Of a DNA stretch of 64,000 nucleotides, positions 18,956 to 25,413 are shown piece after piece. Source of the stretch: Methylobacterium sp. SyP6R (GTDB lineage: Bacteria; Pseudomonadota; Alphaproteobacteria; Rhizobiales; Beijerinckiaceae). The stretch lies in contig NZ_JAAQRC020000001.1 in NCBI RefSeq assembly GCF_019216885.1, positions 3,330,501 to 3,394,500 on the forward strand. Direction: 5' to 3'. Below the pieces are notes generated by a model, which made no database searches, had not been told where the DNA came from, and was given only the letters and a program-made list of their open reading frames with translations. The translations under genes were made by a program, and so were the position numbers. The first letter of the stretch is position 1; every line of letters starts with the position of its first letter.

Positions 18956-19855
18956 TCAGGGCTTCGACGCCGCGCGCGGGCCCGCCGGCCTGATCGGCAG
19001 CGCCCGTTCCAGCAGTCCGTCGCCGAACAGGTCGCGAAACCCCAGATGCGGCATGTGGGCGTAGCCGATATGGCAACGGCACTGGGCGAGCGGGCAGGGG
19101 CGCGGCGCCAGGACGGCGTCGAAATCCGGGTCGTAGAGGTTGCCGATCCGGGTCTTGACGCTGTGGCAGCGGCGGACCTCGCCGTCGCCGTCGACGCTGA
19201 TGACGCTCTCGCCGGTGGCGCAGGCCCGGCCGCGGCTGCGGATGCCGGCCCGGTTGATGCCAAACAGCGGGTCGATCGCCTGGAGGAGCGCCAGGTCGTC
19301 CTCGGCGTAATGGTTCGGGCCCTCGTCCCGATAGGCATTGATCCAGAGATAGATCTCGGGGCGCAAGGCCGCGCGGAGCGCCGTGATGCTTGGCAAGTGC
19401 TCGCGCTTGCCCACCACTCCGACGCTGTAGCTGACGCCGCGCTCGTCGAGGGCGGCGCAGCGGGCAAGGAAGCGGTCGAGGGAGGTCTCGCCCGGGTGGA
19501 AGGTGCACCAGAACGCGATGCGCGAAGGCTCGCAGGCATCGAGCCAGCCGGTCGGCCAGGACAGGTTGGTCTGCGCGGCGACCCGGCGCACCTGCGGCAT
19601 CCGGCTCAACTCGGCCATCGCCCGCCGGTAGGCGGGGCGGATCAGGGCCTCGCCCCAGGGCGTGAACAGGATGCCGAGGCTGCGCCGCGCCTGCCCGCCC
19701 ACCCAGTCGACGAAGCGGGCGAGCTGCCGGGCGTCCCGCCGCAGGGTCTCGCGGCTGTCGCGCCGCTTGGCGAAGGGACAGTAGGGGCAGGCGTAGTTGC
19801 AGCTCGCGAGCGGGCCCCGGTACAGGATGTCGAGGTGACGGCTCACGGCGTTCAC
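18956..19855 (-). CDS. STM4011-family radical SAM protein
   Basis: A 299-residue radical SAM enzyme with the cluster motif CNYACPYC (Cys19, Cys23, Cys26), starting at a GTG that overlaps the upstream stop by 4 bases. The C-terminal third holds further cysteines (RGRACATGE, RRCHS, PCPLAQCRCHIGY), suggesting an auxiliary iron-sulfur cluster as in SPASM or twitch proteins that act on peptides or proteins. The match to the family named after Salmonella STM4011 rests on gene order and motifs recognised by eye. Substrate and product are unknown. It is the last gene of a seven-gene co-directed cluster. Confidence 0.85.
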   Translation of the reverse strand: MNAVSRHLDILYRGPLASCNYACPYCPFAKRRDSRETLRRDARQLARFVDWVGGQARRSLGILFTPWGEALIRPAYRRAMAELSRMPQVRRVAAQTNLSWPTGWLDACEPSRIAFWCTFHPGETSLDRFLARCAALDERGVSYSVGVVGKREHLPSITALRAALRPEIYLWINAYRDEGPNHYAEDDLALLQAIDPLFGINRAGIRSRGRACATGESVISVDGDGEVRRCHSVKTRIGNLYDPDFDAVLAPRPCPLAQCRCHIGYAHMPHLGFRDLFGDGLLERALPIRPAGPRAASKP

Positions 19856-21183
19856 CGGAGCGCGAAGGCGCGCATCCGCTCGCGCGTGCCCGCGGCCTGG
19901 AGCCGGGGGCCGATCGCGTCCGAGCGTTCGAGGCCCGCTTCGGTGAGGGTGAGGGTACCGCCATCGAGCGTGGCGAGACCCGCCTCGACGAGGCTCGCCA
20001 GTTCCGGCAGGTCGTCGAGGAGCGCCGTGCCGAACCGCCCGGCATAGGCAAGCAGGGACAGGCCGGCCGACTGGAGCAGGTGCATCAGCACGAAGCGGCG
20101 GCGCCGATCCTCGTCGTCGAGCCGGGCGCCGTAATCGGCCCGTCCATGCCGGACGGCATCGCGGGCGACGTAATCGGCGACGATCTCGGCGATGCCGGCC
20201 TGGCCCACCGCGTAGGGCGTCGAGTAGTGCAGGGCGGCGGTGTAGGAGCGCGCGCCGGCCCCGAGCCCCACCATGCCGTCGCGGGCGCAATCGTAGGCGG
20301 GGCCCCAGGTCGCCTCGGGCCCGCGCCGGAACATCCGCATCGAGACCTGGGCGTAGCCGGCAGCGCGGAGCCGGTCGCGGGCGGCGCGGTAGATCGCCAG
20401 GCGGCGCACGTCCCAGGCGCCGTCGCCCTCGACGGCGCCGTCGCGCCGGCCGAGCCCGGTCAGCGGCCGGACGTAGAGGGGATAGAGGAACAGTTCCTCC
20501 GGCTCCCAGGCCAGCGCGGCCTCGACCGAGTCGAGGAAGCGCGCGGGCGTCTGCCCGGCGGCGCCGTAGATCAGGTCGATGTTGAGCACCGGGATGCGTG
20601 CGTCGCGGATCGCCCGGAGCGCGGCCTCGACGGCGTCGCGCGATTGCGGCCGGCCCATCGCCCGGGTCTCGTCGCCGCGGAACGATTCGACCCCGATGCT
20701 GACGCGCTCGACGCCGTGCGCCCGCAGCACGGCGAGGCGGTCCGGCGTGGTCGTGCCGGGCGCGGTCTCGACCGAGGTCGGGATCAGGGTCGGCGAGGCC
20801 GCGAAGGTCGTCCGCAGGTCGTAAAACAGACGGTCGAGGTCGGACGGATCGAGGAAGGTCGGGGTGCCGCCGCCGATCGCCATCCGGGCGACCTGGAGGG
20901 TGCCGAGCTGATCGGCGACCGTCTCGGCCTGGAGCCGCAGGGCATCGAGATAGGGTCCGACACGTCCCTCGCCCCGGGTCAGGGTGAACAGATTGCAGAA
21001 GCCGCAGCGCATCGGGCAGAACGGGATGTGGACGTAGAGGAACAGTCCGGTCTTCGGCTCCTCCGCCCACACCTCGCGCAGGGGCACCGGCCGGGTCAGC
21101 GGCCGGTAGGCGGTCTTGTGCGGATAGGCATATTGGTAACCGCCATAGACCGGCCCGGCGAGGATCGCCGCCGCGTGGCTCAT
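19852..21183 (-). CDS. STM4012-family radical SAM protein (HemN/HemW-like)
   Basis: A 443-residue radical SAM protein resembling the coproporphyrinogen dehydrogenase (HemN/HemW) group. The cluster motif is CPMRCGFC (Cys56, Cys60, Cys63), preceded by LFLYVHIPF, and IGGGTPTFLDPSDL follows near residue 100. The C-terminal part carries a HemN-like helical region. In this family it is not thought to be the haem enzyme itself: gene context is always the STM4011-4015 set. It overlaps both neighbours by 4 bases (ATGA with the hydrolase gene, GTGA with the STM4011-type gene), implying translational coupling. Confidence 0.88.
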   Translation of the reverse strand: MSHAAAILAGPVYGGYQYAYPHKTAYRPLTRPVPLREVWAEEPKTGLFLYVHIPFCPMRCGFCNLFTLTRGEGRVGPYLDALRLQAETVADQLGTLQVARMAIGGGTPTFLDPSDLDRLFYDLRTTFAASPTLIPTSVETAPGTTTPDRLAVLRAHGVERVSIGVESFRGDETRAMGRPQSRDAVEAALRAIRDARIPVLNIDLIYGAAGQTPARFLDSVEAALAWEPEELFLYPLYVRPLTGLGRRDGAVEGDGAWDVRRLAIYRAARDRLRAAGYAQVSMRMFRRGPEATWGPAYDCARDGMVGLGAGARSYTAALHYSTPYAVGQAGIAEIVADYVARDAVRHGRADYGARLDDEDRRRRFVLMHLLQSAGLSLLAYAGRFGTALLDDLPELASLVEAGLATLDGGTLTLTEAGLERSDAIGPRLQAAGTRERMRAFALR

Positions 21184-21986
21184 CGCATGCCCTCCAGGAT
21201 GAATTCGGCGTAGGGCACGTCCCAGACCGACGGATGGGCGAGGCGGTGCCCGTGATAGCCGTCCTCGCCGAAGGCGGTGCCGTGATCCGCGCAGACGATG
21301 CAGAGGGCGGGAGCCCGCCGCCCGAGGGCCGCGAAGAGTGCGCCCAGGGCGCCGTCGGCATGGGCGAGGGCGGCCTCTTGCGTCTCGGGGCTCTCCCGTC
21401 TCGCCCCGGGCCGGTAGTGGCGGGTCGGGGCGTGGGTCGCCGAGACGTTGACGAACAGGAACAGGCGCCGCTCCGGGGGCAGGGCCGCGATCCGCTCGAC
21501 CGCGAGGCCGACCTGCGCGCCGGTCGAGTCGCGCGCCTGCACGCCGAAGCCGGGACGCCAGTGGCTTTCCAAGAACAGGCCCGGCAGCACGCGTCCCAGG
21601 GCCGTCCGCTGGTTGAAGAAGCCGACGCCGCCGATGCAGAGCGTGTGGTAGCCGCGCCCGGCAAGCCCCGAGACGATGTCGGGCGCGTCGAACACGGCGG
21701 TGTCCGGCCCGGTGGTACGGCTGCCCTCGAAGGCCAGCGCGAACAGGCGCGGATGGGGCCCAGGTGCGGCGGGCGTCGGCAGGAAGCCGGCGAGGATCGC
21801 CTGGTGGGCGGCGTAGGTGAAGCTGCCCGGCGCATGGCGGCGCTCCCAGGCCCCGCCGGGCAGGAGGCGCGCGAGGTTCGGCGTCCGGCCCGCCGCGAGC
21901 GCGGCCTCCGCCACGTCGTAGCGGAGCGAATCGAGTGTCACGAGCAGGATGTCGTGCGTGCCCACAAGGTCGGCGGCCCGGATCAC
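21180..21986 (-). CDS. STM4013/SEN3800-family hydrolase
   Basis: A 268-residue protein of the alkaline phosphatase/sulfatase/phosphoglycerol-transferase superfamily, from a GTG start overlapping the upstream stop. The N-terminal metal-site strand reads ILLVTLDSLRYDVAE (about residues 13-27) and the C-terminal metal site is CADHGTAFGEDGYHGHR (about 233-249), so the metal ligands look intact. No signal peptide or membrane segment is seen, so it is probably cytoplasmic, unlike many relatives. It could remove or transfer a phospho or sulfo group; the substrate is not known. Confidence 0.85.
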   Translation of the reverse strand: MIRAADLVGTHDILLVTLDSLRYDVAEAALAAGRTPNLARLLPGGAWERRHAPGSFTYAAHQAILAGFLPTPAAPGPHPRLFALAFEGSRTTGPDTAVFDAPDIVSGLAGRGYHTLCIGGVGFFNQRTALGRVLPGLFLESHWRPGFGVQARDSTGAQVGLAVERIAALPPERRLFLFVNVSATHAPTRHYRPGARRESPETQEAALAHADGALGALFAALGRRAPALCIVCADHGTAFGEDGYHGHRLAHPSVWDVPYAEFILEGMR

Positions 21987-23125
21987 GCGGCAAGCCCCAG
22001 CGAGCGGCGCCCGGCGATCCAGGCGGGCAGGCACGCGACCTGCCAGCCATAGGGGTCGTGCCCCGCGAAGGCGACGCGGCGGATCAGGTCGCCGAAGGCG
22101 TTCGCCTCGAAGAAGACGTGACGGCGCAAGCCCACCGTGAGCGCGACGTCGAAGGCGACGTGGAGATTGCCGGGAAGACGAGCGGCGAAGCGGCGGCAAT
22201 CCGCCAGCATCGCCTCCCAGGCGGCGGGCGGGGCGAGCGCCCGCAACACCTCCGCATCGGCCCGGCGCCCGCCGAGATCGAGGTTGGTGATCGGCCCGTC
22301 GGCGAGGCGCAGGACGATGTGGGCCGGCTCGCCCGCCACCACCAGCACCCGCAGGTCGCACGGGCGCCCGCCGATCGCCGCCTTGGGCACCCATCGCTCG
22401 ACATGCGTGTCCTGCGCCAGGATCGCGTCGACGAGGGCGACGGCTTGCGGCCCGCGCAGGCGCCGCAGCCGGTGGGTGTGGTGCAGCGTGCCGTCGCCGG
22501 GCGCGTGCTCGGCGCAGGAGAGCGCCACGATGTCGTTGCCGGCGACCGCGAGCGCGACGATGCCCGCCGCCCCCGAGCCGTAGCGCGGCTTGACGAAGAC
22601 CCGGGAGAGCCCGGCCGCCCGCATCGCCGCGCGCAAGGCCTCGAAATCGTCCACCGGCGGCAGCGCCCGCGGCACCGGCAGCCCCGCCGCCCGCATGGCG
22701 TCGTGGCAGGCGCGCTTGTCGTAGAGCAGGGCGACCGCGGCGGCGTCGTGGGTCATGGCGACCCCGGGCGGCAGGATCCGCCGGGCGAGGCGAATCGCCG
22801 CCGCCAGCCCGCTCTGCACGGCGTGGTCGGGACGCAGCCGCGTGCCTGCATCGCTCCCCGCTTCTTCGTCGGCGCCGGCGAGGCGCAGGAGCGCCCGGCG
22901 GATGCGCAGGCTCCCTCCGGGGGATTCGAGGCGCAGGACACCGCATCCCTCCGGGAAAAGGCCGGCGAGCCGGTCCGGCGCCTCGGCGAAGCGGGCATAG
23001 TCGAGGACGTGGGCGGGCGGCAGCCCGGCCCGGACCAGGGCGGCGTTGAACCCCTCCGCGCGCTCGCCATCCCCTTCCCCGAGGATGACGGAGGGCGCGA
23101 GCGGGGAGCCGGCGGGAACCGTCAT
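21983..23125 (-). CDS. STM4014-family protein (ATP-grasp-like)
   Basis: A 380-residue protein with ATP-grasp features: FVKPRYGSGAAGIVALA in the middle (nucleotide-binding Lys and small-residue loop) and HVFFEANAFGDLIRRVAF near the C terminus, where the Glu and Asn would be metal ligands. ATP-grasp enzymes usually join a carboxylate to an amine or thiol through an acyl-phosphate. The first about 120 residues are a variable domain. Overlaps of 4 bases with both neighbours tie it into the operon. No known substrate. Confidence 0.82.
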   Translation of the reverse strand: MTVPAGSPLAPSVILGEGDGERAEGFNAALVRAGLPPAHVLDYARFAEAPDRLAGLFPEGCGVLRLESPGGSLRIRRALLRLAGADEEAGSDAGTRLRPDHAVQSGLAAAIRLARRILPPGVAMTHDAAAVALLYDKRACHDAMRAAGLPVPRALPPVDDFEALRAAMRAAGLSRVFVKPRYGSGAAGIVALAVAGNDIVALSCAEHAPGDGTLHHTHRLRRLRGPQAVALVDAILAQDTHVERWVPKAAIGGRPCDLRVLVVAGEPAHIVLRLADGPITNLDLGGRRADAEVLRALAPPAAWEAMLADCRRFAARLPGNLHVAFDVALTVGLRRHVFFEANAFGDLIRRVAFAGHDPYGWQVACLPAWIAGRRSLGLAA

Positions 23126-24048
23126 TCCGAGACGGCGATGCTGCGGTAGATCGTGCCGCCGTATTCCTCCTCCTCCTGCCGGTCGGAGAGATCGACCGCC
23201 GGCCCGAGCGTCTCGAGCCGCCCTGTCGTGGGGTCGGTGAGGAAGTGGTGGTGCAGGTCGAGCCGGGACAGGCGCGCGACCGCGGGCGAGGCCAGCAGCG
23301 CCTCGGCGCCCCGGTCGGTGAGGTTGCCGAGCGACAGATCGAGGGTGGTGATCCGCTCCAGCAAAGGCGCCTGGGCGAGCGCGACGGCGAGGTCGTCGGC
23401 ATAGGCGCAGTCGCGTAACGCCAGGGTTTCGAGCTTCGGGAACAGCCGGCCGGCGAAGAGGTCGGCGAAGTCGTCCGGCGTGGTGTCGCCGCCGTATTCC
23501 TCGGTGCCGAGCCAGAGTTCGAGGTGGCGCAGTTCCGGCGCCCCGGCGGCAAGCGCGTCCCGCACCGCCCGGCGCGGCAGCCCGCCCGATTCGAGGATCA
23601 GGGCCGTCAGGTGCGGCGCCTCGAACCGGCCGAGGGCCAGGTCGGTGCCGCCGCGCACCTGCAGGTGCTCCAGGTTCGGGAAGGCGGGCCAGAGCGCCGA
23701 CAGGTCGCTCTGGTTGATCCAGGAGATCTCGTTCTCCTCCGAGACGATGTCGCCGAGGAAGAGCGCGCGCAGGTTGGGGACGCGCTCGGCATAGGTCACC
23801 AGCGCCTCGACGACCTCCTGGGACGAGCCTTGCGAGTCATCGCCCTGCCAGTAGCCGATGACGATGGCGTCGGTCGCCTCGATTCCGGGGAGACCTGCGT
23901 AACTCGCGAGCAGCATCGGGACGCTGTCCTCGGAGTCGTACTCGATGCGGAAGCGCGGCACGGCGCGGGCGACGTCCCACGCCTCGGTCCCGCTCTGGAA
24001 GTCCTCGACCGGCTTGCCGAAGAAGGTGGTCAGGTTCTCGTAGGGCAT
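23122..24048 (-). CDS. STM4015-family leucine-rich-repeat protein
   Basis: A 308-residue protein starting MPYENLTTFFGKPVEDF, with leucine-rich-repeat-like units from about residue 90 onward (PNLRALFLGDI, PNLEHLQVRGG, PHLTALILESG, PELRHLELWLG, PKLETLALRDC, ERITTLDLSLG). The tail after the repeats is acidic and Tyr/Gly-containing (EEEEYGGTIYRS) and ends IAVSE. No catalytic residues are evident, so it may be a scaffold or the protein acted on by the enzymes encoded downstream. It overlaps the ATP-grasp-like gene by 4 bases. Confidence 0.85.
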   Translation of the reverse strand: MPYENLTTFFGKPVEDFQSGTEAWDVARAVPRFRIEYDSEDSVPMLLASYAGLPGIEATDAIVIGYWQGDDSQGSSQEVVEALVTYAERVPNLRALFLGDIVSEENEISWINQSDLSALWPAFPNLEHLQVRGGTDLALGRFEAPHLTALILESGGLPRRAVRDALAAGAPELRHLELWLGTEEYGGDTTPDDFADLFAGRLFPKLETLALRDCAYADDLAVALAQAPLLERITTLDLSLGNLTDRGAEALLASPAVARLSRLDLHHHFLTDPTTGRLETLGPAVDLSDRQEEEEYGGTIYRSIAVSE

Positions 24049-24102
24049 GGTCCCGGCTCCTCGGGCACGATGTCAGGCAAAGGGGCGAGCGAGGTCGGGG
24101 GC

Positions 24103-25110
24103 TCAGGTCTCGACCAGCGGCGCGTAGTCGGCCGGGTCGTCGAAGCCCGCCGTCCAGGCCACGGCCTGGTGGCAGGTGGTCATGGTCGGCGGGACGCGCA
24201 GGAAGTAGCGCCGCTCGGTCGAGGGGCAGCCGACCGAGACGCAGACCAGGGGCTCGTCGTTCTCGAGCGTCACGCGCAGGAGCCGGCGCTCGCCGCCCGG
24301 GTCGTGGTCGGCATCGAGTTCCTCGGCCGCGGCCGCCGCCATGAAGGCCTCGAAGCCGAAGCGCTCCAGCATCACCCGCCGCCGCTCGGCGTTGCGCTCG
24401 GCCAGGATCTCGCCGATCCCGAGTTCGTGCGGCCGGAAGGCGATGCGGGCATCGACCGGCACGCCGCGCCAGCGCAGGCCGACCCCGTCGAGATGGGCCG
24501 GGAGCGCCGTGAGGCCCGAGCCGGCGACGTCGATCCACGAGGTGACGCGAAACCCTTCCGGGACGCGGTCGATCCGGCCGCAGCCGGCGATGTCGAGTTG
24601 CGCGACCGTTCCGCGCTCGGGCAGGGCGTCGATGAGCGCGCAGTCCCGCAGGTCGAGCCGGCCGCCGCGCAGGGCGAGATCGCCGGGCAGCCGGGCGAGC
24701 GCGGTGCAGCCCGCGAGATCGAGGAAGGCCGGCGACAGGCCGGGCGGCAGGCGCTCCAGGGCGAGGCAGTCGCGCAGGTCGACGATGCCGGCGCGCAAAT
24801 CCGCCGGCAGGGCCGTCAGCCGGTGGCAGCCGCGAGCCGAGAGCCGGTAATCGATGCGCACGCCGTCGGCGATGCGCGCGATCGCCCCGCCATCGAGCAC
24901 CATCTCGCGGCAGCGAAGTGCGCCGCCGATCTCCTCGATCCGGCTCTCGGGCGCCAGGATCCGGTGGCAGACGAGGCCGTCCGGCAGGGTCCGGGCGGCC
25001 TCGTTGCGCGGCATGTCGAGCCGGTCGAGCGGGGCGGCGGCCTCCAGCGGGCCAAGGGTCTCGTTCGGGCGCAGCACGCGCCGGGTGGCGGAGGGCGGTC
25101 GGCGGCTCAC
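24103..25110 (-). CDS. repeat protein with DUF6745-like C-terminal domain
   Basis: A 335-residue protein from a GTG start. Residues about 60-210 form short irregular repeats of the LDLRDC / LDLAGC type (IVDLRDCLALERLP, FLDLAGCTALARLP, RLDLRDCALIDALP), suggesting a solenoid similar to the LRR neighbour. The C-terminal part (VTLENDEPLVCVSVGCP, then RRYFLRVPPTMTTCHQAVAW) resembles DUF6745, a tentative match from memory. It starts 6 bases after the small upstream gene and 54 bases before the LRR gene on the same strand, so it appears to be part of the same operon. Function unknown. Confidence 0.75.
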   Translation of the reverse strand: MSRRPPSATRRVLRPNETLGPLEAAAPLDRLDMPRNEAARTLPDGLVCHRILAPESRIEEIGGALRCREMVLDGGAIARIADGVRIDYRLSARGCHRLTALPADLRAGIVDLRDCLALERLPPGLSPAFLDLAGCTALARLPGDLALRGGRLDLRDCALIDALPERGTVAQLDIAGCGRIDRVPEGFRVTSWIDVAGSGLTALPAHLDGVGLRWRGVPVDARIAFRPHELGIGEILAERNAERRRVMLERFGFEAFMAAAAAEELDADHDPGGERRLLRVTLENDEPLVCVSVGCPSTERRYFLRVPPTMTTCHQAVAWTAGFDDPADYAPLVET

Positions 25111-25116
25111 CGGCTT

Positions 25117-25413
25117 TCAGTCCTGCACGGTCACGATGCGCTCGGGCGTGTATTCGCGCTGCCGCCAGACCCGGTAGACGCCGCGCGCCAGCGTGATCGT
25201 GCCGTGCTCGTCGTGGACGACGCGGGCTCGCTCCGCCTGCACGTCGAGGTAGAAGCAGTTCTCGCCGGCGAACAGGGCGGCGGGATCGGCGACCCGGTGG
25301 CTGTGGCCGGTGATCTCGCCATGGGCGAGCACGGTGTGCGGCAGCGGCCGCTCGGCGGCCTCCTGCGGCAGCGCCGGAATTTCCTGGATGAAGATATCAC
25401 CCTGTCGCCACAT
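25117..25413 (-). CDS. small conserved protein with RQGD motif
   Basis: A 98-residue protein, first gene of the seven-gene cluster. It begins MWRQGDIFIQEIPALP and has VLAHGEITGHSHRV in the middle (residues about 28-41) and GVYRVWRQREYTPERIV near the end, the appearance of a small all-beta protein. Similar short proteins with an RQGD start and a GE(I/V)TGH(S/A)H core occur widely beside DUF6745-type proteins, by my recollection, without assigned function. No signal peptide. Start is the ATG at 25413. Confidence 0.72.
   Translation of the reverse strand: MWRQGDIFIQEIPALPQEAAERPLPHTVLAHGEITGHSHRVADPAALFAGENCFYLDVQAERARVVHDEHGTITLARGVYRVWRQREYTPERIVTVQD

Follow-up and report, generated by a model that had tools for sequence, protein, structure and literature searches.

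A conserved five-gene cluster around a leucine-rich-repeat protein with a glutamate-terminated tail in Methylobacterium sp. SyP6R

Gene content and conservation of the STM4011−STM4015 cluster

The window analysed here, a stretch of 64,000 nucleotides from Methylobacterium sp. SyP6R, carries seven co-directed genes on its minus strand between positions 18956 and 25413, as seen in an open reading frame (ORF) analysis. Five of them encode members of the families STM4011 to STM4015, and all five exceed the curated NCBIfam cut-off of their own family: STM4015 with 309.9 against 275, STM4014 with 282.9 against 175, STM4013 with 392.2 against 250, STM4012 with 535.4 against 380 and STM4011 with 384.9 against 200. 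These last five genes are joined by 4-base overlaps (23122−23125, 21983−21986, 21180−21183 and 19852−19855), and the two spacers upstream of them measure 54 and 6 bases. The motifs CNYACPYC and CPMRCGFC, typical of radical S-adenosylmethionine (SAM) proteins, are both present. An earlier sequence-only reading of the locus had described this arrangement, the two motifs and the five families, all of which are confirmed here. It had also treated the seven genes as one cluster; the seven are indeed present and co-directed, but the conserved unit consists of five core genes, to which a DUF6745 protein and a 98-residue protein are added as an optional pair. The features are as follows.

25117..25413, minus strand: 98-residue WRQGD protein, optional partner of the DUF6745 protein
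24103..25110, minus strand: DUF6745 protein (Pfam), 335 residues, with repeats resembling leucine-rich repeats (LRRs), optional partner
23122..24048, minus strand: STM4015 LRR protein (NCBIfam), 308 residues, proposed scaffold or substrate
23146..23196, minus strand: acidic linker of STM4015, about residues 285−301, poorly conserved in the alignment
23125..23145, minus strand: STM4015 tail RSIAVSE, residues 302−308, ending in Glu308 (alignment), proposed site of action
21983..23125, minus strand: STM4014, predicted ATP-grasp ligase, 380 residues, with invariant ATP-grasp-type residues
21180..21986, minus strand: STM4013, 268 residues, GTG start, sulfatase/phosphoethanolamine-transferase fold
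21816..21818, minus strand: codon of the invariant STM4013 residue Thr57 (alignment, compared with the known sulfatase motif)
19852..21183, minus strand: STM4012, HemN-like radical SAM protein, 443 residues, with a HemN C-terminal domain
18956..19855, minus strand: STM4011, radical SAM protein, 299 residues, GTG start, with SPASM-like extra cysteines

The five-gene cluster is a real system. A scan of genome contigs with the STM4015 alignment returned at least 579 coding relatives, of which the best 80 loci were analysed. STM4014 is present in 74 of them, STM4013 in 64, STM4012 in 62, STM4011 in 59, DUF6745 in 34 and the 98-residue protein in 28, counts that rely on profiles made from these same loci, cover many short contigs and include weak matches, those of STM4012 being inflated by an artefact of profiles built from stop-to-stop frames. 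Above 100 bits, the complete five-gene set is found in 56 of the 80 loci, where the lowest best match to a core gene is 290 bits. Where STM4015 has at least about 9 kb of sequence on both sides (35 loci), all five genes are present in 31; the incomplete four are L023 and L077, which belong to one metagenome-assembled genome (MAG), L037 and L081. In L033 and L056, STM4013, STM4012 and STM4011 are also missing within 10 kb downstream, and the contigs stop just upstream. The single-strand order 4015-4014-4013-4012-4011 occurs in 33 loci. The last three genes are inverted en bloc in eight loci, where the STM4015−STM4014 pair is intact, and relocated in one. This pairing is sometimes lost: no STM4014 match passes the cut-off in the MAG of L023/L077 or in that of L029, and in the genome of L083 STM4014 sits on a separate contig.

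Co-occurrence of STM4015, STM4014, STM4013 and STM4011 was further assessed in 195 genomes of Planctomycetota, the phylum of Limnoglobus. STM4013 and STM4014 exceed their cut-offs in an identical set of six genomes; of these, five also exceed the cut-off for STM4011 and five that for STM4015, with a partial match in the remaining genome in each case. Below the cut-offs, matches resembling STM4013 (G323, G327) and STM4014 (G316) were found in three further genomes, as were short STM4015 LRR matches in many genomes. In G343, partial matches to STM4014, STM4015 and STM4011 are packed into roughly 1 kb, which looks like joint decay of the cluster. The sequence-only reading had asked whether the genes occur apart in most genomes; in the long-flank loci and in the six Planctomycetota genomes they occur together. 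After removal of near-identical loci, the pairwise distances of the core proteins are correlated (rho 0.31−0.61, Mantel p 0.002 for all ten pairs). The correlation between DUF6745 and the 98-residue protein is 0.62, and those of these two with the core proteins range from 0.17 to 0.45 (p 0.002 to 0.144).

The STM4015 tail and the predicted enzymes

STM4015 ends in the consensus R-[YF]-[VI]-A-V-[SG]-E-COOH, which follows the poorly conserved acidic linker. In an alignment of 45 STM4015 proteins, the terminal Glu308 is invariant, and R302 and V306 are nearly so. A larger set of 215 sequences combined 95 closed frames taken from the loci with the best 120 of 1352 search matches. Dropping proteins shorter than 200 residues and those duplicated over their last 60 residues left 208, of which 205 have a terminal glutamate. 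Each of the tail positions −7 to −1 holds 2.2−3.6 bits of information, compared with 0.3−1.7 bits at linker positions −25 to −9, and position −2 is mixed (S 123, G 49, A 20, T 11). The last repeat motif, where found, lies 39 residues from the C-terminus in 105 of 182 sequences and 34 to 54 residues otherwise, so that the linker varies mainly in sequence. The three proteins with another last residue come from three Herpetosiphon species that each have four STM4015 genes in tandem, and in every case it is the first copy that deviates; copies two to four in these loci (L010, L011 and L012, about 6.7−10.8 kb) retain the terminal glutamate.

The tail was also found in plasmids selected through STM4013. 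Sixteen of 26 matched plasmid records were examined, including two near-duplicate Salmonella records and an M. currus protein already in the first set; STM4015 is present in 13 of the 16, and 18 of its 18 copies end in glutamate. The conserved tail gives a concrete reason to think that the repeat protein is acted on, and together with the co-occurrence it supports the earlier proposal of a conserved modification-type system centred on this protein. In a single example, a remote LRR protein (L003, 27 bits) with no other core gene in the same stretch, the tail is missing. A degenerate tail pattern gave seven matches in six genomes, four of them STM4015 genes, in a weak search whose reversed control gave six matches and which missed known copies in G303, G305 and G307. 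The other three, considered as further substrates, were rejected as looking like chance (one ends TGG, two lie outside convincing coding frames).

The solved structure nearest to STM4015 is PDB 2RA8, a Bacteroides WGR-LRR relative, and a Bacteroides finegoldii relative that starts like 2RA8 adjoins STM4014 and STM4011. On a B. finegoldii plasmid (L118), STM4015, STM4014 and STM4011 are annotated, the STM4013 match is short and STM4012 is unmatched. Fusions occur as well: P0066 (529 residues) joins STM4015 to a LON substrate-binding domain and keeps the tail ...RFVAVGE, P0064 is a WGR fusion that retains the tail, and P0099 is listed as a WGR fusion. In two Myxococcales loci (L032 and L051), a second STM4015 lies near STM4012.

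The predicted structure of STM4014 shows an ATP-grasp fold closest to ArgX/LysX, with ArgX-LysW and LysX at the top, tied with RimK, and the graspetide ligase PsnB takes rank 1 in Foldseek; the absence of a family from these lists was not counted as exclusion. STM4014 has invariant ATP-grasp-type residues, and the archaeal LysX model scores 18.2 against a cut-off of 275.6. LysX and ArgX, with the carrier LysW, and RimK couple amino acids to a C-terminal glutamate. RimK is described as attaching glutamates to ribosomal protein S6 (PMC4431377). In the Myxococcales loci L032 (11970−13355) and L051 (7614−8774), a gene with a Pfam match to GIDE (E3 ubiquitin ligase) stands between STM4014 and STM4013.

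Members of the STM4011 family carry a CX3CX2C motif and five further invariant cysteines and match several peptide-maturase models weakly; for Pfam SPASM, STM4011 scores 14.6 bits against 21.5. The best PDB match of the family profile, also weak, is an anaerobic sulfatase-maturating enzyme (E 0.0018). STM4012 aligns to HemN across most of its length and to NocN across the core. Its scores lie far under the curated cut-offs for the HemN coproporphyrinogen oxidase (129.9 vs 324.95) and the HemW heme chaperone (124.5 vs 205.4). STM4013 is predicted to adopt the fold of sulfatases and the phosphoethanolamine transferases EptA, EptC and MCR-1, with Thr57, invariant in an alignment of 40 sequences, at what we take to be the sulfatase nucleophile position by comparison with the known motif. 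Formylglycine derives from Cys or Ser, and phosphoethanolamine transferases of this fold use unmodified Thr. The invariant Thr57 does not match the Cys or Ser nucleophile of formylglycine sulfatases. Relatives of STM4013 were found without other core genes, so its chemistry is not bound to STM4015. On a Streptomyces albidoflavus plasmid (L087, 7572−9922), one stands alone, its neighbours being a NUDIX hydrolase and a lasso peptide biosynthesis B2 protein, and a Kitasatospora plasmid (L116) carries another with no other core gene within 6 kb.

Possible chemistry at the C-terminal glutamate

The near-invariant terminal residue behind a variable linker, the pairing of STM4015 with a ligase whose closest solved relatives act on C-terminal glutamates and the co-inherited radical SAM enzymes together suggest that chemistry takes place at the STM4015 C-terminus. 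We regard it as a nearly balanced possibility that the five-gene system modifies the STM4015 tail through ligation at the C-terminal glutamate by STM4014 and elaboration by STM4011, STM4012 and STM4013. More specifically, STM4015 would be an LRR scaffold that holds out its short tail on the acidic linker, and the tail would have to end in a free glutamate. STM4014 would activate the terminal carboxylate with ATP and couple an amine-bearing unit to it, in the manner of LysX/ArgX acting on LysW and of RimK acting on S6. Radical chemistry by the SPASM-like STM4011 and the HemN-like STM4012 would then alter either this unit or the tail, and STM4013 would transfer or remove a phosphoryl or sulfuryl group via Thr57. 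The product could remain on the LRR protein or be freed later by a hydrolase; we lean toward the former because no recurrent peptidase was recognised in the cluster. We infer this reaction, its partners, their order and the final product from the observed cluster, co-occurrence and tail, the predicted folds and the conserved active-site residues. In a wider and more tentative reading, this would be a new carrier-protein chemistry: an ATP-grasp ligase would use the C-terminal glutamate of an LRR protein as a handle for mounting a unit, from which two radical SAM enzymes and an enzyme of phospho- or sulfotransferase fold would build a protein-bound group or signal, across many bacterial phyla and perhaps in an Asgard archaeon.

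The closest known systems share parts of this design. If the proposal is right, the first step would work like LysX/RimK. STM4014 is predicted to be a ligase of the same fold as LysX and ArgX, and STM4015 shares with LysW an acidic end and a C-terminal glutamate. Its tailed partner is, however, a 308-residue LRR protein, for which reason we do not class the cluster in the LysW system, which has a small carrier (a LysW gene elsewhere was not searched for), and its companions are instead a pair of radical SAM proteins and one enzyme of sulfatase fold. No LysJ/K/Y/Z-type or releasing enzymes were recognised among the recurrent neighbours of the 80 loci, which were inspected by eye and not by a model search. 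RimK, matched structurally by STM4014, is likewise a ligase acting at a protein C-terminus, but here a dedicated LRR partner and further modifying enzymes are added. In radical SAM/SPASM maturation of ribosomally synthesised and post-translationally modified peptides, which the weak STM4011 matches recall, the substrate is a short precursor peptide and not the tail of a full-size repeat protein. STM4012 can be aligned with HemN and NocN, though far under the HemN/HemW cut-offs, and STM4013, though of EptA-type fold, is smaller, has no membrane domain and differs from sulfatases in its Thr at the nucleophile position.

The passage from the STM4014 fold to a reaction is the weakest link. Tail covariation is strongest with STM4011, and the test of tail−ligase coevolution did not single out STM4014. 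The radical enzyme may therefore recognise or alter the tail as well, or the tail may serve for docking. In the latter case, PDZ-like recognition of the free C-terminal glutamate would assemble the enzymes, which would make a diffusible small molecule and leave STM4015 unmodified. The conservation of tail positions besides the glutamate (R, Y/F, V) is what recognition would require, and the STM4011 signal also speaks for it, but the best structural neighbours of the ligase work on C-terminal glutamates and STM4015 stays with STM4014 in the eight loci with the other three genes inverted; we consider docking alone somewhat unlikely. A LysW-like carrier, on which a metabolite is built at Glu308 and then released so that STM4015 is recycled, would share the ligation step with tail modification and depart from it solely in what becomes of the product. 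Its leading structural precedents are ArgX-LysW and LysX, and HAD phosphatases in 13 of the 80 loci (ten between STM4014 and STM4013), as well as the Cof-type HAD beside both Salmonella clusters seen, would fit a phosphorylated metabolite. No recurrent peptidase was recognised by eye among neighbour ORFs of at least 80 residues in the 80 loci, and we judge this carrier cycle unlikely. By eye, the seven neighbour groups that recur in at least four loci are HAD, ABC ATPase, protein kinases, nucleotidyltransferase, dehydrogenase and two unassigned groups.

Graspetide-like crosslinking, with STM4014 linking acidic linker side chains to a nucleophile in the tail or linker, would agree with the rank of PsnB and the acidic linker; it is very improbable, as the tail has no conserved Ser, Thr or Lys in the 208 sequences. 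We give equally little credence to maturation of STM4013 by STM4011 in the manner of anaerobic sulfatase maturases, with STM4013 as the working enzyme. The weak PDB match of STM4011 and the sulfatase fold of STM4013 speak for it, while the nucleophile position is Thr in 40 of 40 sequences, whereas formylglycine comes from Cys or Ser and same-fold phosphoethanolamine transferases use Thr as it is. Least credible of all is horizontal co-travel of unrelated genes: it would explain the patchy distribution, with STM4015 passing its cut-off in one of 299 Pseudomonadota genomes, and the plasmid location of several clusters, but not the gene order common across phyla, the identical six Planctomycetota genomes, the joint remnants in G343 or the correlated distances of the core proteins.

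In the portions of the open-licence literature consulted, no functional paper on the cluster was found and the STM4011−STM4015 loci are named only in tables of two papers. DUF6745 is unnamed there, and with SEN3800/STM4010 included, only the WGR domain appears among the matches listed. The families are known as names; neither the tail nor the system appears to be described in this literature. Modification of the STM4015 tail would unite five families known only by Salmonella locus numbers in one system, for which a candidate substrate, a single-residue site and a first reaction can be predicted. If true, it would be a new link between radical SAM peptide maturation and carrier-protein biosynthesis and would give a function to the LRR protein family nearest to PDB entry 2RA8. 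The cluster suggests an undescribed way to build onto the extreme C-terminus of a protein.

Distribution, optional pair and neighbouring genes

With phylum labels assigned to the loci by hand, the complete five-gene set occurs in Pseudomonadota, Chloroflexota, Cyanobacteria, Planctomycetota, Verrucomicrobiota, Bacteroidota, Myxococcota and Actinomycetota, as well as on Deinococcota and Bacillota plasmids, about ten phyla overall. The five genes also lie on one Lokiarchaeota MAG contig, for which misbinning is possible. The system is rare in Pseudomonadota, where the one genome over the STM4015 cut-off is that of the window itself, which has a single STM4015 match.

The DUF6745 protein of the window scores 83.3 against a Pfam cut-off of 27. 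DUF6745 is found in four of the 195 Planctomycetota genomes, two of which belong to the six cluster genomes, and is therefore accessory. The 98-residue protein, which matched no model in NCBIfam, Pfam or PADLOC at the limits used, is accompanied by DUF6745 in all 28 of its loci in the 80-locus set. Among 18 sequences, H37, H39, H67, E69 and H70 are invariant within GHxH and HxEH motifs, which suggests a putative metal site, and QREY is invariant near the end.

Two other roles for the cluster were considered and rejected. A scan of viral contigs with STM4013 for phage cargo returned three loci, in which local profiles matched no other core gene except STM4012 in L099; this match (114 bits, in a frame overlapping STM4013) was taken as an artefact because the profiles derive from stop-to-stop frames. 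As a defence system, the sole PADLOC match among the seven proteins is weak (STM4012, 17.7 bits, E 0.0003).

The flanking genes of the window (13001−18931 and 25543−29960) encode a GlnD uridylyltransferase, an NMT1-type ABC transporter, a CoA-transferase III, an OsmC protein and an M23 peptidase. The transporter, GlnD and the CoA transferase were rejected as parts of the system because the neighbours of related clusters in M. currus, Salmonella and others differ.

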